IMG/VR virus record: IMGVR_UViG_3300031951_000598
Span: 1 to 35,812 of that record
Direction: 5' to 3' (one strand)
Length of the DNA stretch: 35,812 nt
DNA from: a virus
Shown piece by piece: positions 3,131 to 14,192 of the stretch. The notes beneath the pieces were generated by a model. It did no database searches. It was given only the letters and a program-made list of their open reading frames with translations, and was not told the DNA's origin. Within the stretch, counting starts at the first letter, position 1, and each line of letters begins with the position of its first letter. The position numbers were made by a program, and so were the translations under genes.

Positions 3131-3657
3131 CCGCGGCAACGTGGCCGCAGGCCTTTGCCTCGCTCCTCAAGCACGAGGGCGGATACGTCAACCATCCAAG
3201 CGACCCCGGCGGCCGCACCAACCTGGGCGTCACGCAACGTGTCTGGGAAGAGTGGGTCGGCCACCCAGTCGACGAGGCCGCCATGCGCGCGCTGACACCT
3301 GCAATGGTGGAGCCGCTCTATCGCAAGCGGTACTGGGACAAGATCCGCGGCGACAACCTGCCGGCCGGCATCGATCTGGCGGTTATGGACTACGCGGTAA
3401 ACAGCGGCCCGGGCCGGGCGGCGAAGACATTGCAGGAGGCCGTCGGCATCGCTGCGGATGGGTCAATTGGGCCGAAAACGCTGGCGGCGGTGTCTGACGC
3501 AGACGCCCTGACGGTCATCGGCGAGATCTGCAACCTGCGCCTCGCGTTCCTCCGATCGCTTCCAACTTGGCCGACCTTTGGCAAGGGCTGGTGGGCTCGC
3601 GTCGAGAACGTGCGTAAGGAGGCGTCGTCGCTGGCGCGTCACCCCTCGCAGGAATAG
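3127..3657 (+). CDS. Endolysin, GH108 N-acetylmuramidase with peptidoglycan-binding C-terminus
   Basis: The start is taken as GTG overlapping the holin stop (GTGA), giving 176 aa. The N-terminal motif LKHEGGYVNHPSDPGGRTN is diagnostic of glycosyl hydrolase family 108, with Glu17 in EGGY as the catalytic acid. The C-terminal half contains DGSIGPKTLAAV, typical of the PG_binding_3 domain that follows GH108 enzymes. No signal peptide or SAR anchor is seen, so the enzyme should depend on a holin for export. It ends the late transcription unit and overlaps the convergent gene on the other strand by 19 nt. Confidence 0.92.
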   Translation: MTAATWPQAFASLLKHEGGYVNHPSDPGGRTNLGVTQRVWEEWVGHPVDEAAMRALTPAMVEPLYRKRYWDKIRGDNLPAGIDLAVMDYAVNSGPGRAAKTLQEAVGIAADGSIGPKTLAAVSDADALTVIGEICNLRLAFLRSLPTWPTFGKGWWARVENVRKEASSLARHPSQE

Positions 3658-4187
3658 ACCGTTTCAGACCGGCGCAGCTTGCACCACTCCAGTTTGGTCG
3701 TGAACGAGGCGTCGCGGAACAGCACCCGGTTGGTCGGCTGGATCGTCAGGCGACCGCGCTGCGTTCGCATGAACATGAACTCCTTGGCCTGCGCCGGCGC
3801 GTGCGTATAGGCGTCGCTCACCGGGATGGCGGTGAACAGGTAATCCGCGGCTAGCTCGTCATCAGCCGCCCGCACGATGGCGTCAAGGCCGTCGAGGTAG
3901 TCGTAGATGTGCAGCGAGAACTGCGAGCCATAGCAGTCCCATGTTTGCGCGTCCTTGATCGTCCAAGGTGGCGGGTCGTCGCAGAACGCCAGCGCGTGGG
4001 GCGGCAGGTCTCGGTAGACCGCGCCGCATTCCAGCAGCACCGTGCAGCCCCATGCGCGGCCAGGATGACTATGCAGGCCGAACCAGACCGCCGGCAGCCA
4101 TTCGTCGGCGTCGTAGCCGAGGAATGCGCCGTTGACCGAGACGTACTGGTGGCGCGGCAGGCTGCCGCTGGCGGTGAACAGGGTCAT
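3639..4187 (-). CDS. Hypothetical protein, distal gene of leftward early operon
   Basis: The start at 4187 is supported by GGGAGG 7-8 nt upstream and by ATGA overlap with the tiny gene before it. The 182-aa product is soluble and aromatic-rich, with several Trp, Cys and His residues (ADEWLPAVWFGLHSHPGRAWG, then CTVLLECGAVYRDLPPHAL). No family is recognised. A metal-binding or beta-barrel enzyme fold is possible but not shown. It is last in an operon containing RecE/RecT-like genes. Confidence 0.7.
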   Translation of the reverse strand: MTLFTASGSLPRHQYVSVNGAFLGYDADEWLPAVWFGLHSHPGRAWGCTVLLECGAVYRDLPPHALAFCDDPPPWTIKDAQTWDCYGSQFSLHIYDYLDGLDAIVRAADDELAADYLFTAIPVSDAYTHAPAQAKEFMFMRTQRGRLTIQPTNRVLFRDASFTTKLEWCKLRRSETVYSCEG

Positions 4188-4267
4188 GGCATCGCCTCCC
4201 AGAACGCGCACACCCACATCGCCAAGTAAGCTGCGACCGCTATCGTTTTGACGCACGCCCTGCTCAT
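4184..4267 (-). CDS. 27-aa predicted membrane micropeptide
   Basis: This short frame (MSRACVKTIAVAAYLAMWVC then AFWEAMP) exactly fills the space between two genes. Its ATG overlaps the upstream stop and its stop overlaps the downstream ATG, both as ATGA. Almost the whole peptide is one hydrophobic helix. Double coupling is hard to explain by chance in a compact operon, but no homology is known and the Shine-Dalgarno is weak. Confidence 0.5.
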   Translation of the reverse strand: MSRACVKTIAVAAYLAMWVCAFWEAMP

Positions 4268-4599
4268 TTCTGAGCACTCTTTTGAACATGCGTTATTTTT
4301 GGCGGTGGAAGGCGAAAGAGTGCAGTCCTCCATTGCCCGTCGACGACGCGATACTGCGTATCCCGATGCATTGCATCTAGGCTGATTGCAATCGTGTCGA
4401 TTTGCGTGACCGTTGGCATCAACGCTTTTGCGGCGGCGATTGCGCCGCGCATGTCGGTGCAGGACAGCTCGCTGATGAATATCTCAACATGCGTCGCGCT
4501 CCTCACCCTGATGGAATTGCAGTAACAAAGAAGCGTATCGCTCCAATAGAACGTTCCGTGCGGCGTTTTGATGCTGTCGCCTTCATATTCCGTGCTCAT
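4264..4599 (-). CDS. Hypothetical 111-aa protein
   Basis: ATG at 4599 has a strong purine-rich ribosome site (AGGGAGGAAGAAG) just upstream and lies 2 nt after the previous stop; longer in-frame starts would run into that gene. The protein begins MSTEYEGDSIKTPHGTFYWS and reads as a small alpha/beta domain with a hydrophobic AIAAAKALM helix. It does not match a family known to me. Its stop overlaps the start of the micropeptide at 4267. Confidence 0.7.
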   Translation of the reverse strand: MSTEYEGDSIKTPHGTFYWSDTLLCYCNSIRVRSATHVEIFISELSCTDMRGAIAAAKALMPTVTQIDTIAISLDAMHRDTQYRVVDGQWRTALFRLPPPKITHVQKSAQK

Positions 4600-6412: not shown

Positions 6413-7278
6413 GCTGCGTACTCCCTCTGGATGCTGGTTGCGATCTCGTTGGCCGCCCAGAACGGGAGGCCAATTTCAAAAACACCGACGGTGTAGCCCG
6501 GCCAGTCTTGCGACGCAACGCTTTTCGCGAAGCGGCGCAGGATCTGGCGCAGCTGCTGGTCAGCGGCGCTGGCGGCCTCGGCGCTGAGCGCGGCGACGTA
6601 GCCCAGATGCGGGGCGTTGCTGCCGACGACCATGAAGGCGTGCGAGGGCCGCTGGACGCCGAGCAACCCGGCGACGAGGCGGAACATCGCGTCGCCCAGG
6701 TCGTAGCGGAGATTGGCGCAGGTGCGCCGCCATGCGTTCGGCGCGGGGTTCGCGGTGGTCTTGAGGTTCACCGCCAGCCCGGCCCTGCCGATCCACAGGT
6801 CGGGACGGCACAGCAGCGTCAGGCCGGTTTCCTCGTCCTTCGCGATCATCGTGACCTCGGCCCGGCCGCCGGCCTCTAAGAGGCGGCGGGCGTCGGGCTG
6901 GGCCATGAGCGCGTCGCGCATCGAGATGATCTGCATGTGCGCGTCGAAGCTGATGATTGACCGGCCCTCCTGCGCGTCGCGCCACGCCCGGCCCTCGCGC
7001 GTCGAGAAGTTGAGGCCCTCGGGCTTGATCGCGTAGCGGTCGCGGAAGGCGTCGGCACCCTCCAGGATGTAGCAGTGCGCGGCGGTGCCGAGCGTCATCG
7101 CGGGCGTGCTGTCCGACTGGATGCGATCCGGGTTACCGCGCCAGAACGCGAAGGCGTGAGCCGGGCACTCGGTTTCGTAGGCGACGAGGTCGCTGCCGCT
7201 GACCGCCGGGGCCGGAATGCCGGTGCCGGACAGGTAGGTGGCGAAGTCGATGTCGTGGTGGATGCCTTCAGCGATCAC
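6409..7278 (-). CDS. RecE-like exonuclease (PD-(D/E)xK, DUF3799-type), with altered active-site residue
   Basis: This 289-aa protein starts with GTG. It has the RecE/DUF3799 landmarks: LGTAAHCYILEG (His68), Glu141, CRPDLW (Asp160) and NLKTT (Lys173). These correspond to the His, Asp and Lys of the E. coli RecE nuclease site. At residue 171 the expected Asp of Asp-x-Lys is Asn (codon AAC). The downstream motif usually written Y-x-x-Q-x-A-x-Y appears as YDLGDAMF, so its Gln is Gly195. It lies directly before recT, the usual exonuclease/annealase pairing. The family call is firm; full catalytic competence is doubtful from sequence. Confidence 0.82.
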   Translation of the reverse strand: MIAEGIHHDIDFATYLSGTGIPAPAVSGSDLVAYETECPAHAFAFWRGNPDRIQSDSTPAMTLGTAAHCYILEGADAFRDRYAIKPEGLNFSTREGRAWRDAQEGRSIISFDAHMQIISMRDALMAQPDARRLLEAGGRAEVTMIAKDEETGLTLLCRPDLWIGRAGLAVNLKTTANPAPNAWRRTCANLRYDLGDAMFRLVAGLLGVQRPSHAFMVVGSNAPHLGYVAALSAEAASAADQQLRQILRRFAKSVASQDWPGYTVGVFEIGLPFWAANEIATSIQREYAA

Positions 7279-7420
7279 TGGTCGTCTCCCTCTTGAGCTG
7301 GCGGTGGACCCAGCCGCGCAGGGCGGCGAGGCGGGACTGTTTCTTTCCGCGCGGGGCGTGGGCCGCGCGCTTGATCATGCTGCGGTAGGTCCGCAACAGC
7401 TTGCGGCGTTCGCTGGTCAT
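7268..7420 (-). CDS. Small basic protein, 50 aa
   Basis: ATG at 7420 overlaps the upstream stop (ATGA), and the end overlaps the recE-like start by 11 nt. The product is highly basic and helical (MTSERRKLLRTYRSMIKRAA, later KKQSRLAALRGWVHRQLKRE), which suggests nucleic-acid binding. Its tight overlap with the nuclease gene suggests coupled expression. No family is recognised. Confidence 0.6.
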   Translation of the reverse strand: MTSERRKLLRTYRSMIKRAAHAPRGKKQSRLAALRGWVHRQLKRETTSDR

Positions 7421-7617
7421 CGCTTGCCCTCCAGTTGCCTGACAACCAAAGTTGCTTCTGATGCATTCCGATATGAGCCAACGAGACGGACGACCTCTCC
7501 CTGCGGAAGATCCCTCCTCTGGGCTCGAGGCTTGGTCAGGTCGTACTCCCAGACTGCATATGACGTTCCGCGCGTTCCCCTGCCGCTGCTCATGGGGACG
7601 ATTGCAAACCGGCTCAT
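7417..7617 (-). CDS. Hypothetical 66-aa protein
   Basis: ATGA overlaps occur at both ends. The protein begins MSRFAIVPMSSGRGTRGTSYAVWEYD and ends with SEATLVVRQLEGKR. It looks like a small beta-rich domain of the kind found in many phage early regions (a short YAVWEYD strand, then a helix). No function can be assigned. Confidence 0.65.
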   Translation of the reverse strand: MSRFAIVPMSSGRGTRGTSYAVWEYDLTKPRAQRRDLPQGEVVRLVGSYRNASEATLVVRQLEGKR

Positions 7618-7796
7618 CGCTTGCCCTCCATCGCGGCAAGCTGGTGCTCCAACGCGGCGATGCGCTGGTGGGCCAGCAGGTAGTCGAGCGTCTCAGGGTT
7701 GAGGTCGCGGGCCAGCTCGACGCGCAACTGGATGCGCGCGCGGAGCGTCGCCGGGGTGTCCGGCAGGGCGCGGACAGCGGGGAGGGGGCGGGTCAT
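7614..7796 (-). CDS. Hypothetical 60-aa helical protein
   Basis: The gene is coupled at both ends by ATGA. It is Leu/Arg/Ala-rich and predicted helical (ARIQLRVELARDLNPETLDY, then ALEHQLAAMEGKR). It ends with the same EGKR tetrapeptide as the next gene (7417-7617), a match too short to show relatedness by itself. No family is recognised. Confidence 0.65.
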   Translation of the reverse strand: MTRPLPAVRALPDTPATLRARIQLRVELARDLNPETLDYLLAHQRIAALEHQLAAMEGKR

Positions 7797-7987
7797 GCTG
7801 CCTCCAGCGGCTGCTCGCTCAACACGCAGTCGAGCGCGTCGCGCAGGCGCTGCGCGTCGTAGGGGTCGAGGCGGATGGTCAGGCTGTCGATCTCGACGAT
7901 CACGCGGCGAAACTTTTCGCCGTGCTCGTAGGACCGCGCGGCGACCTTCTGCGCGCCCATGAAGGCGATCTCGATGTCGCGGATCAT
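7793..7987 (-). CDS. Hypothetical 64-aa protein
   Basis: The start overlaps the stop of the 20-aa micropeptide, and the stop overlaps the next ATG. The sequence (MIRDIEIAFMGAQKVAARSY, then RRVIVEIDSLTIRLDPYDAQ) reads as a small two-strand/helix domain. It has no transmembrane segment and no recognised motif. Confidence 0.65.
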   Translation of the reverse strand: MIRDIEIAFMGAQKVAARSYEHGEKFRRVIVEIDSLTIRLDPYDAQRLRDALDCVLSEQPLEAA

Positions 7988-8046
7988 GCCAGCACCATGA
8001 TCGCGGCGATGGTGGCGCCCATCAGGGCGGCGAACACGAGGTGCAT
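7984..8046 (-). CDS. 20-aa predicted membrane micropeptide
   Basis: The frame MHLVFAALMGATIAAIMVLA fills the gap between the first and next operon genes: its ATG is 2 nt after the upstream stop and its TGA overlaps the downstream ATG. GGAGGGCT lies just upstream on the minus strand as a usable ribosome site. The whole peptide is one hydrophobic helix. It is too short for any annotation cutoff, so support is positional only. Confidence 0.45.
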   Translation of the reverse strand: MHLVFAALMGATIAAIMVLA

Positions 8047-8048
8047 GG

Positions 8049-8318
8049 TCAGCCCTCCAGCTCGACGGTGATGGTGCTCTCGGCGTGAACCGCGATCTCG
8101 CTGACCATGTCGGTCACGCTGGCGACGCTGGTCTGGTACTCGCTGTCGAACGCCTTCGCGACCTCGACCGACATCAGCACGGTGCGGTCGATCTGCGCGC
8201 CGCAGATGTCTCGCAGACGCGTCAGCGCCGCGATGATGTCGCGCTCGGCGTTGGCCTTGGCGATGTCGATGCGGCGCAGAGCGCTCTCGCAGTCATCGAT
8301 GAACGACATGTTGCTCAT
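8049..8318 (-). CDS. First gene of leftward early operon, 89-aa hypothetical protein
   Basis: ATG at 8318 follows GGGAGAC by about 6 nt; an upstream in-frame ATG at 8369 lies within the promoter. The protein is mostly helical and acidic (MSNMSFIDDCESALRRIDIA, later RTVLMSVEVAKAF) and ends with a VHAESTITVELEG strand. As the promoter-proximal gene it should be the first and strongest early product. Function unknown; host-takeover or anti-defence roles are common at this position but unproven. Confidence 0.7.
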   Translation of the reverse strand: MSNMSFIDDCESALRRIDIAKANAERDIIAALTRLRDICGAQIDRTVLMSVEVAKAFDSEYQTSVASVTDMVSEIAVHAESTITVELEG

Positions 8319-8360
8319 AGTCTGTCTCCCCGGTTGCGTCGCCAACGCGGCGACAGGGCA

Positions 8361-8388
8361 AACATACACCAGCGGTGCAGGTCGTCAA
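8361..8388 (-). promoter_or_regulatory. Leftward early promoter
   Basis: On the minus strand, TTGACG (8383-8388) is followed after 16 bp by TATGTT (8361-8366). The spacer is filled by a 15-bp palindrome that ends on the first two bases of the -10. It faces the 15-gene leftward operon, whose first ATG is at 8318. Confidence 0.65.
8365..8379. promoter_or_regulatory. Operator palindrome, copy 1
   Basis: TACACC-AGC-GGTGCA: six-base arms with one mismatch and a 3-bp centre. The same 15-bp pattern occurs at 8419 and 12856, each time inside a promoter spacer. It is a likely site for a phage repressor. Confidence 0.7.
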
Positions 8389-8410
8389 CAGGTTCGTGCG
8401 AATAGTCTGC

Positions 8411-8437
8411 TTGACCTATACACGCGGGGTGTAGTAG
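8411..8437 (+). promoter_or_regulatory. Rightward early promoter
   Basis: TTGACC (8411-8416) is followed after 15 bp by TAGTAG (8432-8437), a weak -10, with the operator palindrome between them in the same geometry as the leftward promoters. A start near 8444 would give an almost leaderless transcript for the ATG at 8450, which has no Shine-Dalgarno. Confidence 0.5.
8419..8433. promoter_or_regulatory. Operator palindrome, copy 2
   Basis: TACACG-CGG-GGTGTA: five perfectly complementary outer bases in each arm around a 5-bp centre. It occupies the spacer of the rightward promoter, 40 bp from the first copy. Confidence 0.7.
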
Positions 8438-8449
8438 CCGTGGCGAACC

Positions 8450-8653
8450 ATGAACCTAGACCAGTTCCTCGCCGCCATCGGCGGCACTCTCGCGGCGGCT
8501 CGGGCATTCTCGACCTCGCCACAGGCCATCAGCAATTGGAAGCGGCGGCAGCGGCTTCCGGCGGCTCGCCAGCTCCAGGCGCTGCAGATCGCGCGCAAGA
8601 AGCGCCTGCGGTTCGACCCGGCGGCGGCGACGCAGCCCGAGGCGCGGCGATGA
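8450..8653 (+). CDS. Cro/YdaS-like HTH regulator
   Basis: This 67-aa protein is the first rightward early gene. It shows a helix-turn-helix of the YdaS/Cro type: MNLDQFLAAIGGTLAAARAF, then STSPQAISNWKRRQRLPAAR, where AISNWKRR is the recognition-helix pattern and LPAAR the usual following turn. The tail is basic. Its promoter and the divergent one carry the same palindrome, so it is the best candidate for the protein that binds it, acting as a Cro-like switch or autoregulator. No CI-like repressor with a peptidase or oligomerisation domain was found. Confidence 0.8.
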   Translation: MNLDQFLAAIGGTLAAARAFSTSPQAISNWKRRQRLPAARQLQALQIARKKRLRFDPAAATQPEARR

Positions 8654-9387
8654 GCCGGATCACCGCGATCGAGCAGGTCACCAACGCCCTGCGCGTCGCC
8701 GGAGGCCGGGTCACGACCTCTGATCTGTGCGCGGCGCTGCCGCAAATGGACCGCGGCGCGATCCTCGGCTCGCTGGCGCACCTCAAGCGCAAGCGCGTCG
8801 TCGAGAGCAATTACGTCCCTACGAGGCCGCCAAAGTGCGGCTGGACATACTGGTTCGCAGCCACGAGGCCCGTGCGCGGCTCGCGCTACCGCGCGGCGGT
8901 TTCGGCGGGGTTCACCCGGGTCATCTGCGAATGGATGGACAGCCAGGGCGGCGAGGCCAGCATCGAGGCGTGGCGGACTTGGATCGCGGGCATACAGAAC
9001 CGCATCCGGCTCAACAGCGCTATTCACTCGCTGCGCAAGCGCGGCTTGGCCGAGTGGGGCGACGACCGCGTCGCGCTTACGCCAGCGGGCCACAAAGCGC
9101 TCACGCTCGGTCGCAAGGTCGCGCCATACCCGCCGCAACTGCGGGATTTCGAGGACGGCGAGCCAGTCGAAGCGCAGCCATCTACCGATCCCGAGCAGAG
9201 CGTCGAGCGCGCCGAGCGCCTCTGGCCGCGGCTGATGGCCGGACGGCGCTTCGAGGACATCCCGGCGCATATGATCCGCCCGCTGAAGGTGCTGCGCTGG
9301 ACGCCGAGCGTCGAGGCGCGGAGCTTGACGGGGTCGAGCGGTGCCATGCTGGCGGAAAGCCGCAGCTCGATCGGGACGACGCCATGA
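8650..9387 (+). CDS. Double winged-helix-like early protein
   Basis: ATG overlaps the HTH stop (ATGA); 245 aa. The N-terminal region (MSRITAIEQVTNALRVAGGR, then VTTSDLCAALPQMDRGAILG) and a middle region (AGIQNRIRLNSAIHSLRKRG, then LAEWGDDRVALTPAGHKAL) each read like a winged-helix domain of the MarR/replication-protein kind. The C-terminal 80 residues are acidic and then disordered. The position between a regulator and a resolvase suggests transcription control or DNA metabolism. The family is not identified. Confidence 0.7.
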   Translation: MSRITAIEQVTNALRVAGGRVTTSDLCAALPQMDRGAILGSLAHLKRKRVVESNYVPTRPPKCGWTYWFAATRPVRGSRYRAAVSAGFTRVICEWMDSQGGEASIEAWRTWIAGIQNRIRLNSAIHSLRKRGLAEWGDDRVALTPAGHKALTLGRKVAPYPPQLRDFEDGEPVEAQPSTDPEQSVERAERLWPRLMAGRRFEDIPAHMIRPLKVLRWTPSVEARSLTGSSGAMLAESRSSIGTTP

Positions 9388-9749
9388 AGCGCAAATGGCA
9401 GGGTGTGATCCTGGGCGAGCCGGTGTCCAAGGCCAACTCGCGCCGGATCGTGAGGTTCGGCACGAAGCTGCGCGTCATCAAGTCCGAGAAGGGGCTGGCC
9501 TACGTCGAGGCCGTCGCGCGGCAGGTGCCGGAGTTGCCGCCGGATAGCCAGCTGCTGTCCCCGATCAGGCTGACCGCGCACATCTACTACAGCAGCAACA
9601 GGCCGGACCTCGATCCGAGCCTGCTGCTGGACGCACTGCAGAACCGCATCTACCGCAACGACCGCGCGGTGCGGGAAATGCACCTGTATCACCACCTCGA
9701 CCGCACGACGCCGCGCGCCGAGGTCTACCTAGAGGAGATCGACGAATGA
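9384..9749 (+). CDS. RusA-like Holliday-junction resolvase
   Basis: The 121-aa protein resembles RusA-family endonucleases. An early SKANSRR segment follows a GEPVSK strand, and the acidic centre RPDLDPSLLLDALQNRIYRN then DRAVREMHLYHH mirrors the usual D-x-D...D-x-L...DD arrangement of metal-binding Asp residues. RusA proteins resolve branched recombination and replication intermediates before packaging. It is coupled to both neighbours by ATGA. The family match is clear by pattern; activity is inferred. Confidence 0.78.
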   Translation: MKRKWQGVILGEPVSKANSRRIVRFGTKLRVIKSEKGLAYVEAVARQVPELPPDSQLLSPIRLTAHIYYSSNRPDLDPSLLLDALQNRIYRNDRAVREMHLYHHLDRTTPRAEVYLEEIDE

Positions 9750-10000
9750 CCGGCATCAACGACGACCTGACGAGCTACGCCGACCGCCTGACCCGCCTGC
9801 TCGACGCCGCCGACGAAGCGCGCGAGGACATCAAGCAGCTGCGCGTCGAGATCAAGTCCGCGGGCTACGACCCCGCTGCGCTGGTGCGCGTGGTGCAGCT
9901 GCGCCGCGACGAGCGCAAGCGGGCGAAGGAGCAGGAGCGGCTGCAGGCGGTCGCGCTCTACGCTGATCGGCTCGGGGTCCAGCTCGACCTCGCGCTTTAG
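9746..10000 (+). CDS. GapR-like (DUF2312) DNA-binding protein
   Basis: This 84-aa protein has the DUF2312/GapR layout: an N-terminal coiled helix (YADRLTRLLDAADEAREDIK), then the conserved AGYDPAALVRVVQLRRDE segment corresponding to the GFDVKALRKVIRLRK block, then a helix ending near LYADRLGV. GapR of Caulobacter and relatives binds overtwisted, AT-rich DNA ahead of replication forks. A phage copy next to replication genes could act at the phage origin or compete with the host protein. Start at ATG overlapping the rusA-like stop. Confidence 0.85.
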   Translation: MTGINDDLTSYADRLTRLLDAADEAREDIKQLRVEIKSAGYDPAALVRVVQLRRDERKRAKEQERLQAVALYADRLGVQLDLAL

Positions 10001-10153
10001 AAACCGGCCAGGCCCTCCCTTGCCGTCGCCGGCGGGCGGCGGAACCCTAAAACCAATCCAGCGCCAGTTGCGACGCGTCAACAGGCCCCTGGCCGGGTCG
10101 TTTACCTGATGGATCGGACCCGCCAACCAACCAATGAAACGGGAGAGTTCGAC

Positions 10154-10507
10154 ATGCGCGAAGAAGAGTCGACCGACGCAGTCACTCGGCTCACGAAAGA
10201 GCTGGAGATGTCCGATACAGCGCTGTTTGCGCAACTGCGCGAAAACCGAGTGCTAAAGGCGGCGCTTGAGGCGTCAAGAGAGGAAATCGAAAATCTGCAG
10301 GGCCTTATCGATCAACTCACGTCTGCAGATCGCGAAGTCGCTCACCGCGAGCACATTGAGGAGATGAGGCGGGACTACAGATTTAGATGCGACCAGCGCG
10401 TCGAAAAGCTCCGCGACGAGATCAGCAGCATCAAGTACGAAATGCACAAGCTGCGCCTTCGCAACGAAACGCTGATGCGAAAGAACGAGAAGCTGAACGC
10501 CCGTTGA
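10154..10507 (+). CDS. Coiled-coil early protein, 117 aa
   Basis: ATG at 10154 has GGGAGA 7 nt upstream. Nearly the whole product is charged heptad-like helix (VTRLTKELEMSDTALFAQLR, later RVEKLRDEISSIKYEMHKLR), with no membrane segment. It looks less GC-rich than adjacent genes. A 153-base stretch without a gene separates it from the GapR-like gene; within it a 9-bp inverted pair (10004-10012 and 10088-10096) is the only structure seen. The last codons run into the phased repeats at 10499. Function unknown. Confidence 0.7.
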   Translation: MREEESTDAVTRLTKELEMSDTALFAQLRENRVLKAALEASREEIENLQGLIDQLTSADREVAHREHIEEMRRDYRFRCDQRVEKLRDEISSIKYEMHKLRLRNETLMRKNEKLNAR

Positions 10508-10553
10508 ACACCGGTCTAGCGCCCGCTCAACGTCCGTTCAACGCCCGTTCGAC
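10499..10553. repeat. 11-bp phased repeats, candidate iterons
   Basis: Units close to GCCCGTTCAAC begin at 10499 (gcccgttgaac), 10521 (gcccgctcaac), 10532 (gtccgttcaac) and 10543 (gcccgttcgac), all in an 11-bp register. Weaker matches may continue to 10575. Spacing of one helical turn upstream of a replication gene is typical of initiator-binding iterons. The stretch from the end of the coiled-coil gene (10507) to 10738 contains no gene. Confidence 0.55.
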
Positions 10554-10622
10554 AGACGCTACACAAGCCGCTCACATCGCGTTCGTGCTTGACTTGAAAC
10601 GCTGACGACCCGCACAAATTAC

Positions 10623-10654
10623 GCGCCCCGCCGGGCTGGAACCGGGCGGGGCGC
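10623..10654. other. GC hairpin upstream of replication gene
   Basis: Arms GCGCCCCGCC (10623-10632) and GGCGGGGCGC (10645-10654) pair perfectly over 10 bp around a 12-nt loop. No U-tract follows in either direction, so it is either a weak terminator or a structural element of the origin or leader region. Confidence 0.6.
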
Positions 10655-10656
10655 AA

Positions 10657-10677
10657 CGGACTGCACCAACCAGTCCG
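10657..10677. other. Second hairpin upstream of replication gene
   Basis: CGGACTG (10657-10663) pairs with CAGTCCG (10671-10677) around a 7-nt loop, two bases after the first hairpin. The tandem arrangement in the leader of the DUF1376 gene suggests a folded RNA or single-strand DNA structure. Confidence 0.55.
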
Positions 10678-10738
10678 GCCACAATGGCGCGCTGAACCTA
10701 TCGCGCGCGGCGGGCCGGATCAACGCGAAAGGGCGCTG

Positions 10739-11608
10739 ATGGACCCGCTAGTACCGCCGGAGGTCGATCTCCGGAATTTCACCTACATGCCGCTCGACGT
10801 GGTTCGGCTGCGCGACAGCGACATCGCGGGCGTCGAGGACGGCGAAGTCTTCCGCGCGGCGGTCCTCGCGTGGTGCGCCGCTTGGCATCAGGTTCCCGCC
10901 GCCAGCTTGCCCGACGACGACGCCCTGCTGGCCCGCCTGACCGGCTACGGACGCGACATGGCGACCTGGAGGCGGGTTCGCGAGGCTGGCGCGCTGCGCG
11001 GTTTTGTGCGGTGCAGCGATGGCCGTCTCTACCACCCGGTTGTGGCCGAGAAGGCGTTAGAAGCATGGGACAAAAAGGGCCGCCAAGCCGAGCGCACGCG
11101 ACGCGCCACGGAGGCCGCTGCGGAGCGCGCACGGGTGCGTAGAGAATCCGTTACGGATTCCGTAACGGACTCCAAGGAGAGGAGAGGAGAGGAAAGGAAT
11201 AGAGAGGAAAGAGATATCGGAGACGTCCCTCTTAGTTCTGGGGGGTCCGGGGGGACGCGCGCAGAGCGCGCCGACCGCGGGACGCGCCTGCCGGCGGACT
11301 GGGCTCCGACGGAGGATGACCGCGCGTTCGCGGCCGGCCTAGGCGTCGCGGTTGACCGCGAGGCGGCGTCGTTCCGCGACTACTGGCACGCAAAGCCCGG
11401 CGCGGACGGGCGCAAGACCAACTGGTCGGCAACCTGGCGCAACTGGGTGCGCCGGACATCGGAAAGGAAGCAGGGCAATGGCACAGGATCTCGATCTCAG
11501 TCCCGCAACGGGTTTATCGTTCTCGCTGAGCGCCTTGCTCGGGAGGATGCAGACCGAGCAGCCGGGCGCCCCGCTGGCGATTTCTTCGACCCAGAAGGCC
11601 GAGGCTGA
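10739..11608 (+). CDS. DUF1376-type phage replication protein
   Basis: The 289-aa product has the DUF1376/YdaU pattern in its first 120 residues: FTYMPLDVVRLRDSDIAG, FRAAVLAWCAAWHQVPAASL PDDD in two adjoining blocks, LARLTGYGRDMATWRRV, and DGRLYHPVVAEKA. A charged linker (about 125-165: VTDSVTDSKERRGEERNREE) joins a C-terminal DnaT-like segment with LPADWAPTEDDRAFA and RKTNWSATWRNWVRR. Such proteins are thought to load the host replicative helicase at phage origins. The linker-coding DNA holds a 23-bp palindrome and a purine tract that may be the origin. The last 131 nt overlap the next gene. Confidence 0.82.
   Translation: MDPLVPPEVDLRNFTYMPLDVVRLRDSDIAGVEDGEVFRAAVLAWCAAWHQVPAASLPDDDALLARLTGYGRDMATWRRVREAGALRGFVRCSDGRLYHPVVAEKALEAWDKKGRQAERTRRATEAAAERARVRRESVTDSVTDSKERRGEERNREERDIGDVPLSSGGSGGTRAERADRGTRLPADWAPTEDDRAFAAGLGVAVDREAASFRDYWHAKPGADGRKTNWSATWRNWVRRTSERKQGNGTGSRSQSRNGFIVLAERLAREDADRAAGRPAGDFFDPEGRG
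11147..11169. repeat. 23-bp inverted repeat inside the DUF1376 gene, candidate origin element
   Basis: TCCGTTACGGA (11147-11157) and its exact reverse complement TCCGTAACGGA (11159-11169) are separated by one base. They encode the VTDSVTD part of the protein linker. A 41-nt tract (11174-11214) follows with only one pyrimidine on the top strand. Confidence 0.6.
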
Positions 11609-12068
11609 GCGGGCTCTAGCCGCGATCGAGGCCGCCCTGCAGCCCGCGCCGCAAGCGCTGGCGCTGCGCTGGATCTCGGCGCTCGGCACCCTGACCGCGA
11701 CCAAGCCGGGCGAGGCCGACGGCGATGCCAAGGCCAGGGCCTACGCGGCGATGCTGGAATATCCGGGGTCAGCGTTCAGCCGGGCGAGCCTCGACGCGGC
11801 GGCGCGCAAGTTCAGGTGGTTTCCCAGCTACGCCGAGGTCTGCGAGCACCTCGAGGCCGAGGTCGCGGCGGCGAAGGCCCAGCGCCACCAGCTGCGCCGG
11901 GCGGTCGCGCTGCCGGCGGAGGGGTCGAGGCCGGCTGGCAAGTGGTCCACGATGACCGACGAGCAGAAGGCGGAATTCGAGGCGACGATGGAGAAGTTCC
12001 GGTCCCGGTTCGCCTCGGATGCCTCGCGCGGCCCAGAGGATGGCGCAGGAACGCCGGAAGCCCGCTAA
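11478..12068 (+). CDS. Replication-associated hypothetical protein overlapping DUF1376 gene
   Basis: ATG at 11478 is preceded by GGAAGCAGGG. The 196-aa protein contains ALALRWISALGTLTATKPGE, AYAAMLEYPGSAFSRASLDA and ARKFRWFPSYAEVCEHLE, a pattern seen in small proteins encoded after phage replication initiators. It may be a loader or partner of the DUF1376 protein. The first 131 nt are shared in another frame with the end of that gene; the only nearby internal ATG (11547) has its GGGAGG too close. The stop lies inside a long hairpin. Confidence 0.68.
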   Translation: MAQDLDLSPATGLSFSLSALLGRMQTEQPGAPLAISSTQKAEAERALAAIEAALQPAPQALALRWISALGTLTATKPGEADGDAKARAYAAMLEYPGSAFSRASLDAAARKFRWFPSYAEVCEHLEAEVAAAKAQRHQLRRAVALPAEGSRPAGKWSTMTDEQKAEFEATMEKFRSRFASDASRGPEDGAGTPEAR

Positions 12069-12108
12069 CCCATGGCAGGGTAGCGGGCGACCGGCTTCCG
12101 GCGTTCCT
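12047..12108. terminator. Long bipartite hairpin between convergent operons
   Basis: AGGAACGCCGGAAGC (12047-12061) pairs perfectly with GCTTCCGGCGTTCCT (12094-12108). Inside, CCGCTAACCC (12062-12071) pairs with GGGTAGCGG (12078-12086) with one missing base, leaving a 6-nt loop. It lies at the meeting point of a rightward and a leftward operon, so it can act as a bidirectional terminator. The right-hand gene's stop codon is in the left arm. Confidence 0.8.
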
Positions 12109-12117
12109 AGGGCCGTT

Positions 12118-12321
12118 CTAGGCGTTTTCGGGCCGGAGATGCCTCGGCAGACGCTTGTAGGCGGTCCTGACCGCGTCCTGCCACTCTCCGGCGGTCATCA
12201 GGTCGGTGTCCGCGACGCCTCGGCGCAGAAGCACGTCGCGCAGCTGCTCGGCGTCGAGGAGGCTGGCCTCGCGCATCGCGTGGCGCAGGCGGGTGAGGCT
12301 CATGGTCGGGTGGACGCGCAT
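12118..12321 (-). CDS. Hypothetical 67-aa protein
   Basis: ATG at 12321 lies 2 nt after the upstream stop. The product is basic and helical (MRVHPTMSLTRLRHAMREAS, later LRDVLLRRGVADTDLMTAGE and DAVRTAYKRLPRHLR), possibly a small DNA-binding domain. It is the last gene of the three-gene leftward operon at 12.8 kb. No family is recognised. Confidence 0.6.
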   Translation of the reverse strand: MRVHPTMSLTRLRHAMREASLLDAEQLRDVLLRRGVADTDLMTAGEWQDAVRTAYKRLPRHLRPENA

Positions 12322-12323
12322 GG

Positions 12324-12539
12324 TCAGGCCACCCGGTGCAGGCCGCCGTGCGGCACGAAGTCGTACTGCGCGCCGTTGCGACCGGTCAGGCGGTAGACAT
12401 CGGGCTCGCCGCCGGGCGTCAGGATCTTGTGGGCGACCGTCAGGGTCAGGAAGCCGACCTTGACCGTGCTGCCGATCGACCATTCCTGCTTGGGCTTGCC
12501 GGTCGGGGCGAAGCGGCTCGGGCGGTAGTAGTTGGTCAT
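12324..12539 (-). CDS. Hypothetical 71-aa protein, small beta domain
   Basis: ATG at 12539 follows GGAGAC by about 6 nt. The protein begins MTNYYRPSRFAPTGKPKQEW and continues with strands such as STVKVGFLTLTVAHKIL and PDVYRLTGRNGAQYDFVPHG, reading like a small SH3-like or RNA-binding beta barrel. Similar short proteins are common in phage early regions without assigned function. It is followed closely by the 67-aa gene. Confidence 0.65.
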   Translation of the reverse strand: MTNYYRPSRFAPTGKPKQEWSIGSTVKVGFLTLTVAHKILTPGGEPDVYRLTGRNGAQYDFVPHGGLHRVA

Positions 12540-12585
12540 CGTCGTCTCCGTGGGTTGGTTGATGCGTGGATACTGCGGGAAGGTT

Positions 12586-12619
12586 GCGGGGTTGAGGAGT
12601 GCGTTTCCTGCAACCCCGC
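12586..12619 (-). terminator. Hairpin within leftward satellite operon
   Basis: GCGGGGTTG (12586-12594) pairs with CAACCCCGC (12611-12619), extended inward by AGGA/TCCT with one bulge. It lies just after the stop of the first gene (12626) on the minus strand and before the second. With no U-tract it may only partly terminate or may protect the mRNA end. Confidence 0.45.
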
Positions 12620-12625
12620 TATGCG

Positions 12626-12805
12626 TCAGGCGAGCTCCCACTCAAAACCCTCGCCCGTGATCTTCGCGCAGCACGCGGGCAGCTCCGACTTGCGAACCGT
12701 GAACGACACCGCGCCGCCCAGGCGCTGCTTGGCGGCCTCGCTCGCGCAGCGAACGACCACCTCGGTGGCGGCGAAGTCGGAGGAGAGGATCTGGAAGTCG
12801 GCCAT
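12626..12805 (-). CDS. Hypothetical 59-aa protein, first gene of satellite early operon
   Basis: ATG at 12805 is preceded by AGGGAGG at good spacing. The protein (MADFQILSSDFAATEVVVRC, later GGAVSFTVRKSELPACCAKI) looks like a compact alpha/beta domain with three Cys residues. Its promoter carries the same operator as the two main early promoters, so it should be expressed with them. Function unknown; a small, separately promoted, operator-controlled early gene is a candidate host-interaction factor. Confidence 0.65.
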   Translation of the reverse strand: MADFQILSSDFAATEVVVRCASEAAKQRLGGAVSFTVRKSELPACCAKITGEGFEWELA

Positions 12806-12851
12806 GTGGGCCTCCCTGGTTTGGCGCCTCGGCGCCGGTTTCGATGAAAGG

Positions 12852-12879
12852 AACATACACCGCCGGTGCAGGATGACCA
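12852..12879 (-). promoter_or_regulatory. Leftward promoter of satellite operon
   Basis: On the minus strand TGGTCA (12874-12879) and TATGTT (12852-12857) are 16 bp apart, with the operator palindrome in between. The -10, spacing and operator position match the leftward promoter at 8361-8388. Confidence 0.6.
12856..12870. promoter_or_regulatory. Operator palindrome, copy 3
   Basis: TACACC-GCC-GGTGCA. It differs from copy 1 only in the 3-bp centre and shares the flanking GAACA/AAACA context that forms the -10 on the minus strand. Confidence 0.7.
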
Positions 12880-12906
12880 TTGCAAAGAACGCGGGGCGTT
12901 ATGCGC

Positions 12907-12938
12907 TTGACGCATGGCTAAAATTGGCGCAATAAAAT
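12907..12938 (+). promoter_or_regulatory. Possible rightward promoter of the late/methylase unit
   Basis: TTGACG (12907-12912) precedes an AT-rich stretch, AATAAAAT (12931-12938), just before the methyltransferase ATG at 12942. Spacing is 18-20 bp depending on the -10 chosen. No Shine-Dalgarno is present, so a leaderless transcript is possible. The late genes that follow have no stronger promoter that I can see. Confidence 0.35.
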
Positions 12939-12941
12939 TAC

Positions 12942-14192
12942 ATGATCCAGATCGAGCGCATCGGCGTCGAGGCGCTGATCCCATATGCCCGCAACTCGCG
13001 CACCCACAGCGACGCGCAGGTAGCCCAGATCGCGGCGTCGATCCGAGAGTTCGGGTTCACGAACCCCGTTCTCGTGGACGAAGCGAATGGCATCATCGCG
13101 GGCCATGGCCGCGTCCTGGCGGCCCGCAAGCTGAAGATGCCGGATGTGCCGGCGATCCGGCTTTCGCACCTGACCGAGGCGCAGAAGCGAGCCTACGTCA
13201 TCGCGGACAACAAGCTAGCGCTTAACGCCGGCTGGGACATCGAACTGCTGCGGCTGGAGATCAACGACCTGCGCGGCCTGGAGTTCGACGTGGCGCTGAC
13301 CGGCTTCTCGACCGAGGAGCTCGACGCGCTGATGGCCGCGCCGGGAACCGAGGGCCTGACCGATCCCGATGCAATCCCAGAGGCGCCAGAGCAGCCGATC
13401 GCGGTGCCGGGCGACGTGTGGCTACTGGGGCGGCACCGGCTGGTCTGCGGCGACTGCACCGATCCGCTTGCGGTCGAAAAGGCGTTGAGCGGCGTCAAGC
13501 CGCACCTGATGGTCACCGACCCGCCTTACGGCGTCGAGTACGACGCCAACTGGCGAAACGAAGTCGATCGCAAGAACGGCAAGCCCTACGGCGCTCGCGC
13601 CGTAGGAAAGGTCAAGAACGACGACAAGGCCGACTGGCGCGAAGCATGGGCGCTGTTCCCCGGTGATGTTGCCTATGTCTGGCATGCGGGAAACATGGCG
13701 CACGTTGTGGCCGAAAGCCTGATGGCCTGTGATTTGGGCATTCGCGCGCAGATTATTTGGGCGAAGAGCCAGTTCGTGATCGGCAGAGGCGACTACCATC
13801 CGCAGCATGAGCCTTGCTGGTACGCCGTTCGAAAGGGCCGCAAGGGCCATTACGACGGCGGCCGAAAACAATCGACGCTGTGGCAGATCGACAAGCCCCG
13901 CAAGTCTGAGACTGGCCACAGCACGCAGAAGCCCGTCGAGTGCATGAAGCGCCCCATTGAGAACAACTCCTCGCCGGGGCAGGCGGTCTACGAGCCGTTC
14001 AGCGGGTCAGGCACCACCATCATCGCCGCCGAGATGACGGGCCGCGCGTGCCACGCGATCGAGCTCAATGCGGCCTATGTCGATGTCGCAGTGAAGCGCT
14101 GGCAGGAGTTCACCGGGCAGGCTGCGACTCTGGAGGGCGATGGCCGCAGCTTCGCTGACATGGCGACCGAGCGATGCAAAGCCGACGCATGA
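12942..14192 (+). CDS. ParB-like domain fused to DNA methyltransferase
   Basis: In this 416-aa protein, residues 1-95 form a ParB/sulfiredoxin-like domain with IIAGHGRVLAARKL (AGHGR at 53-57). From about 155 onward is an amino-methyltransferase with DPPY (193-196) before FSGSGTT (353-359), the beta-class order, so N6-adenine or N4-cytosine methylation. The fusion is common in phages and mobile elements. Likely roles are protection against host restriction or methylation-dependent regulation of packaging. No partner restriction enzyme is encoded nearby. Target sequence cannot be read. Confidence 0.9.
   Translation: MIQIERIGVEALIPYARNSRTHSDAQVAQIAASIREFGFTNPVLVDEANGIIAGHGRVLAARKLKMPDVPAIRLSHLTEAQKRAYVIADNKLALNAGWDIELLRLEINDLRGLEFDVALTGFSTEELDALMAAPGTEGLTDPDAIPEAPEQPIAVPGDVWLLGRHRLVCGDCTDPLAVEKALSGVKPHLMVTDPPYGVEYDANWRNEVDRKNGKPYGARAVGKVKNDDKADWREAWALFPGDVAYVWHAGNMAHVVAESLMACDLGIRAQIIWAKSQFVIGRGDYHPQHEPCWYAVRKGRKGHYDGGRKQSTLWQIDKPRKSETGHSTQKPVECMKRPIENNSSPGQAVYEPFSGSGTTIIAAEMTGRACHAIELNAAYVDVAVKRWQEFTGQAATLEGDGRSFADMATERCKADA

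Follow-up and report, generated by a model that had tools for sequence, protein, structure and literature searches.

Why would a phage place a copy of its early-switch operator in front of three short genes that lie several kilobases from the switch? The question arises from a sequence-only reading of the window, i.e., the whole stretch of viral DNA analysed here (35,812 nucleotides). At position 12856, this reading saw a repeat of the palindrome of the main switch, with the same 16-bp spacing and the same TATGTT -10, and took it for the third copy of an operator that would control a small operon in trans. Both the operator, which is conserved, and the cassette of genes behind it are real (Table 1). 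In the explanation that we consider probable, this operator places under the early switch a swappable anti-defence cassette that ends in an AcrIE3-like gene and is shut off by a Cro-like protein.

Table 1. Operators, promoters and genes of the switch and of the cassette (positions in the window).
Feature	Position	Strand	Remarks
Fourth operator	6481-6495	both	within the last part of the exonuclease gene; encodes YTVGV
Early leftward promoter, TTGACG-16-TATGTT	8361-8388	minus	sole promoter-like site found by a scan of 7000-13500
Left operator	8365-8379	both	in the early leftward promoter; motif and exact match
Right operator, TACACG-N3-GGTGTA	8419-8433	both	16 nt before the Cro-like gene; recovered though held out of training
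Cro-like helix-turn-helix regulator, 67 aa	8450-8653	plus	presumed binder of all four operators
Strong stem-loop	12045-12117		where gene 3 and the replication gene converge; -46 kcal/mol, z -5.1
Gene 3, 67 aa, AcrIE3-like	12118-12321	minus	family profile, PHROG, predicted fold
Gene 2, 71 aa, predicted small SH3-like barrel	12324-12539	minus	homologues in other phages
Gene 1, 59 aa	12626-12805	minus	one distant homologue (L009), 46% identical
Cassette promoter	12852-12879	minus	-35 TGGTCA (12879-12874), 16-bp spacer, -10 TATGTT (12857-12852); read from sequence
Third operator, TACACCGCCGGTGCA = TACACC-N3-GGTGCA	12856-12870	both	between -35 and -10 of the cassette promoter

Four operators and two similar promoters

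The element TGCACC-N3-GGTGTATGTT has two exact copies in the window, both on the minus strand (8361-8379 and 12852-12870), and the repeat of palindrome, spacing and -10 noticed by the sequence-only reading is thus an exact match, 4.49 kb from the left operator. Only 0.11 occurrences with up to three mismatches would be expected by chance in the window, and no exact match appeared across 200 dinucleotide shuffles. When as many as 3 mismatches in 12 are tolerated, the bare 15-bp palindrome is not enriched, with 5 sites found versus 4.18 expected; near-perfect sites and a held-out motif were therefore used instead, and the significance of the operator rests on near-perfect sites only. The training set of the motif consisted of left operators and intragenic sites from relatives; third and right operators were held out. 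It finds exactly four sites in the window, scoring 21.4 (6481), 20.8 (8365), 19.7 (12856) and 16.2 (8419), with the next at 4.65, while 0.01 sites per shuffle (n = 200) reach the score of the third operator. The site at 12856 is hence genuine, but the count of three copies has to be raised to four by the site at 6481-6495.

With its TGGTCA -35, the cassette promoter (8 of 12 consensus bases, counted by hand) is weaker than the leftward promoter with TTGACG, and this weak -35 is the reason why the promoter scan omits it. Relatives display 22 distinct forms of the cassette promoter, all of which keep TGCAATG(G/C)T and the core GGT(G/T)TAT.

The intragenic operator can be followed in the exonuclease genes of relatives. 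Among 49 loci hit by the exonuclease, 43 cover the operator part, the other 6 being truncated or unrelated there; as these loci overlap between searches, the 24 distinct codon strings that they contain are the better count. The arms TAC ACC - GGT GT(T/A) are kept in 23 of these 24 strings, even though GGT makes up 14% of the glycine codons of these exonuclease genes, and GTT and GTA together 16% of their valine codons. Since these rare arm codons are kept while the middle codon varies (V, A, T, D or R), the site appears to be under constraint at the DNA level. No -10 or promoter adjoins it, and it could perhaps act as a transcription roadblock within the leftward operon.

These observations bear on a simpler explanation, according to which the element is mainly a promoter with GGTGTATGTT as an extended -10, the palindrome does not act as a site for the Cro-like protein, and expression of the genes is constitutive. 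Consistent with this, conservation is everywhere highest in the -10-proximal arm, and one of the two clades of relatives (clade B) has a decayed distal arm at both the left and the third operator. However, in the other clade (clade A) the distal TGCACC arm of the third operator is invariant despite its position in the spacer, while the 3-bp centre varies. In addition, the palindrome is found upstream of the Cro-like gene and, free of any adjacent -10, in the exonuclease gene, where it is kept against codon preference. We thus regard a promoter-only element as very unlikely.

A cassette gained and lost together with its operator

Related loci were collected from a viral collection for gene 1 (8), gene 2 (19), gene 3 (51) and the Cro-like gene (52), with overlaps between the sets. 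Comparison of 49 distinct regions downstream of the replication gene, 8 of which are cut by contig ends, left 41 informative regions. Gene 3 and the promoter-operator are both present in 36 of them (32 by a strict pattern and 4, with a slightly changed operator sequence, judged by eye) and both absent from the remaining 5 (L050/L052/L085, L067, L070, L073 and L076/L089). Likewise, four of the six long relatives (G001, G002, G003 and G005) carry the same four operators as the window, whereas G004 and G006, both devoid of the cassette, carry three, the third alone being absent. This both-or-neither pattern, in regions and long relatives alike, indicates that the operator moves together with the cassette. 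Of note, L067, L070 and L073 look like deletions that begin just past the conserved TTGACGCATGG element and stop near the end of gene 3, which would fit excision of the cassette from an ancestor that possessed it.

The composition of the cassette follows a simple rule: gene 3 is the last gene in every operator-bearing cassette, and one or two genes from at least eleven families (grouped by eye) stand between it and the promoter, this slot being occupied by genes 1 and 2 in the window. Several of the slot proteins preceding gene 3 have a common C-terminal tail (IDAGIDAEADRSRA or similar) on differing bodies, and others share the N-terminus MAKTLTQYRA, again with differing bodies; these common ends look like recombination joints. 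Further middle-slot proteins with no recognised function are found in L045 and L033. Pooled pN/pS values are 0.56 for gene 3 (28 distinct coding sequences), in line with moderate purifying selection, 0.15 for gene 2 and 0.58, from few differences, for gene 1. Downstream, none of 200 shuffles is as stable as the stem-loop separating gene 3 from the replication gene, which is the likely end of transcription for both; the hairpin that separates genes 1 and 2 does not reach significance (z -1.8).

All three short genes announced by the sequence-only reading (12805 to 12118) are thus present, and its suggestion that they might serve counter-defence applies to them unequally. Gene 1 has no match in Pfam, PHROG or the PDB. 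Foldseek finds no structure significantly similar to the barrel predicted for gene 2 (best E 0.1, with partial matches to kinases). PADLOC returned no match for any of genes 1 to 3, and neither genes 1 and 2 nor the other middle genes match an anti-defence family. Four of the 12 loci L015-L026 (L015, L017, L023 and L024), which belong to other phages, have a homologue of the annealing protein or exonuclease downstream of the gene 2 homologue and on its strand, a neighbourhood that would fit an early role. Another gene 2 homologue (L091) is located in a Variovorax paradoxus genome contig. For the genes other than gene 3, the rapid turnover of the slot makes an anti-defence role plausible.

Immediately beyond the cassette (12907-12935), relatives have a conserved TTGACG followed after 17 nt by a -10-like CAnnAT, an element that is weak in the window. 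Outside the cover of the operator, this could be a promoter reading rightward into the gene at 12942-14192, which encodes an N6/N4 DNA methyltransferase with a fused ParB-like domain.

A last gene related to AcrIE3

The sequence-only reading had counted gene 3 among its unknown genes, and on its own the gene 3 protein of the window indeed has no match among the PHROG and NCBIfam models and none with E below 0.06 in Pfam. A link to AcrIE3 thus needs the family profile and the fold. Searched against the PDB with hmmsearch, a profile built from 10 gene 3 homologues matches AcrIE3 over most of its length (8zey, E 1.7e-4; 8hel, E 2.2e-4), followed by a weak third match to MTH396 (0.033), and the reversed-sequence decoy of the profile has no PDB hit. 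Alignment of the profile with AcrIE3 by hhalign gives 95%, against 0.2% for the reversed decoy. Moreover, 5 of the 10 family members match phrog_8786 (type I-E anti-CRISPR), with a best E of 5.6e-4.

Structure prediction, proposed by the sequence-only reading as a check, leads to the same protein for gene 3, besides the barrel of gene 2. The template-free model (pLDDT 83) has AcrIE3 structures as its top two Foldseek matches (TM 0.74-0.75, rmsd 1.4, prob 1.00, with E-values of just 0.02-0.03), and fold comparison gives Z 9.9 and 9.8 for AcrIE3 versus 2.9 for the next best structure. By profile and predicted fold, then, gene 3 is a distant relative of AcrIE3, and its putative counter-defence role is well supported. 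A second AcrIE3-like protein is encoded in the middle slot of L126, where it scores 38.1 bits versus 12.7 for the best of 2000 decoys; a PDB search with this upstream protein alone returned nothing.

The AcrIE3 of Pseudomonas phages such as DMS3 (PDB 8hel and 8zey) and gene 3 are alike in size (68 versus 67 aa), in a mainly helical fold (predicted for gene 3), in an aligned motif around VxDTDxL..xxW and in a promoter that contains an inverted repeat. They differ in that their identity is just 21-25% and that no aca gene is recognised beside gene 3. They also differ in distribution: a search of the phage collection with an AcrIE3 fragment gives 40 records, all from Pseudomonas, whereas single-sequence tblastn with gene 3 gives none.

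Such low identity leaves room for a gene 3 that resembles AcrIE3 in structure alone and has a different task, e.g., binding to some host protein other than Cascade, in which case the operator and operon would be real but the cassette would be an accessory or host-takeover island. The failure of genes 1 and 2 and of the other middle genes to match any anti-defence family could be read in this way, as could the constancy of gene 3 in the cassette, given that turnover is common among arms-race genes. On the other hand, AcrIE3 is the sole strong PDB match by both sequence and fold, phrog_8786 agrees with it, and the setting of the gene, with its inverted repeat inside an early-type promoter and its changing neighbours, fits acr loci. 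A different task for gene 3 consequently seems unlikely to us, and inhibition of a type I-E system would be its probable function.

Probable control from the early switch

No regulator family was recognised among genes 1 to 3 (PHROG and Pfam) or among 14 other cassette proteins (PHROGs), a comparison that a very divergent regulator could escape. Because the cassette has no recognised regulator gene, a regulator acting in trans comes into consideration, presumably the Cro-like protein of the switch. It matches PHROG transcription regulators (E 1.3e-6) and, under the cut-off, the Pfam families YdaS (2.4e-5) and P22_Cro (2.1e-4), with a weak PDB match to Cro (3bd1, E 0.0097). Its helix-turn-helix segment is nearly invariant among relatives. 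The left and third operators vary in parallel: both have the distal arm TGCACC in clade A, and both lack it in clade B while retaining GGTGTATGTT; the right and intragenic operators stay palindromic. This parallel change, which is mostly a single split between two clades, suggests a common logic at the leftward and cassette promoters. In clade B, binding by the Cro-like protein may be weak at the left and third operators, where the distal arm is degraded. Taken together, the shared layout of operator and promoter, the joint gain and loss in relatives and the parallel change of the sites between clades support the proposal of a small operon regulated in trans.

The course of events that we favour would begin upon phage entry, when host RNA polymerase would fire the early leftward and cassette promoters together, producing a burst of recombination proteins and small anti-defence proteins. 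As it accumulates, the Cro-like protein would bind the palindrome between -35 and -10 at both promoters, as well as its own promoter, thereby shutting off all three. In doing so in trans, it would carry out the job of the dedicated Aca repressor of known acr operons. According to excerpts of a study of DMS3vir, AcrIE3 is expressed early, is among the most strongly expressed genes and has the repressor Aca1 in its operon (PMC8027618).

The site could instead be bound by another protein, namely a CI-type repressor of a phage or prophage, so that the cassette would be silent in a lysogen rather than shut off during lytic growth. A CI-like repressor with an S24 peptidase domain is indeed encoded at the contig end of G006 (L090:18511-19236), though this relative carries no cassette. 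Such a repressor was not found in the other 10 of the 11 records, G000 included, and a search of all 11, which are linear and may be incomplete, gave no tyrosine integrase. Control by a CI-type repressor therefore appears quite unlikely. For the same reasons, the word switch should not be taken to imply a proven lysogeny decision, and a full lambda-type lysogeny switch is not established for this phage.

Divergent early promoters, a small Cro-like protein and palindromic operators make up the Cro-operator switch of lambda and P22, and all three are found here. In contrast to lambda and P22, this phage has one operator per promoter and an extra operon controlled in trans, and no CI gene or integrase was found in the window. 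Sites of a single regulator scattered over the genome are also seen in phage P1, with the operators of C1. As far as excerpts of PMC9283540 describe them, mycobacteriophage stoperators resemble the present case in that one regulator has scattered sites, one of which here lies outside promoters; this phage departs from the stoperators and from P1 in having just four sites, palindromic, one of which controls an accessory cassette. In a nucleotide search of known phages, only the methylase and replication genes showed similarity among the matches listed.

Closer to the cassette itself, the accessible parts of several reports describe acr promoters with an inverted repeat between -35 and -10 (PMC9001735, PMC9410906), this core-promoter repeat being bound by an Aca protein (PMC9410906, PMC9001735, PMC9410881). 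The repeat at 12856-12870 occupies the same place in the core promoter of the cassette. On the strength of these excerpts, acr-aca operons (Aca1 to Aca10) and the cassette share an early-type promoter with such a repeat, several small genes and variable companions. The cassette stands apart from them, as they are portrayed there, in that no Aca gene is recognised and repression is presumed to come from the Cro-like protein of the switch, encoded 4.2 kb away; copies of the operator are moreover present at the switch and within the exonuclease gene. The cassette is hence a variation on the theme of the acr operon and not a new kind of operon, in which the Cro-like protein, by analogy, probably plays in trans the part of Aca. 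No description of acr control by Cro or CI repressors was found in the titles and abstract beginnings of the papers listed by literature searches.

A bolder and more tentative version, to which we give somewhat less than even credence, would make the master early regulator the Aca of a plug-in cassette. The chassis of this cassette would be fixed (operator, promoter and AcrIE3-like last gene), its middle slot would trade at least the eleven families counted here, most of them defence inhibitors that have gone unrecognised, and the single intragenic operator would trim expression of the recombination operon. If the explanation favoured here is true, the AcrIE3 family reaches beyond Pseudomonas phages, and control of an anti-CRISPR gene that dispenses with a dedicated aca gene is suggested. 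The conserved promoter and last gene would then provide a frame for seeking new anti-defence proteins in loci that escape guilt by association with aca genes.

Elsewhere in the window, a gene on the minus strand (3639-4289) matches a PHROG annotated as ferredoxin (E 2.1e-12).
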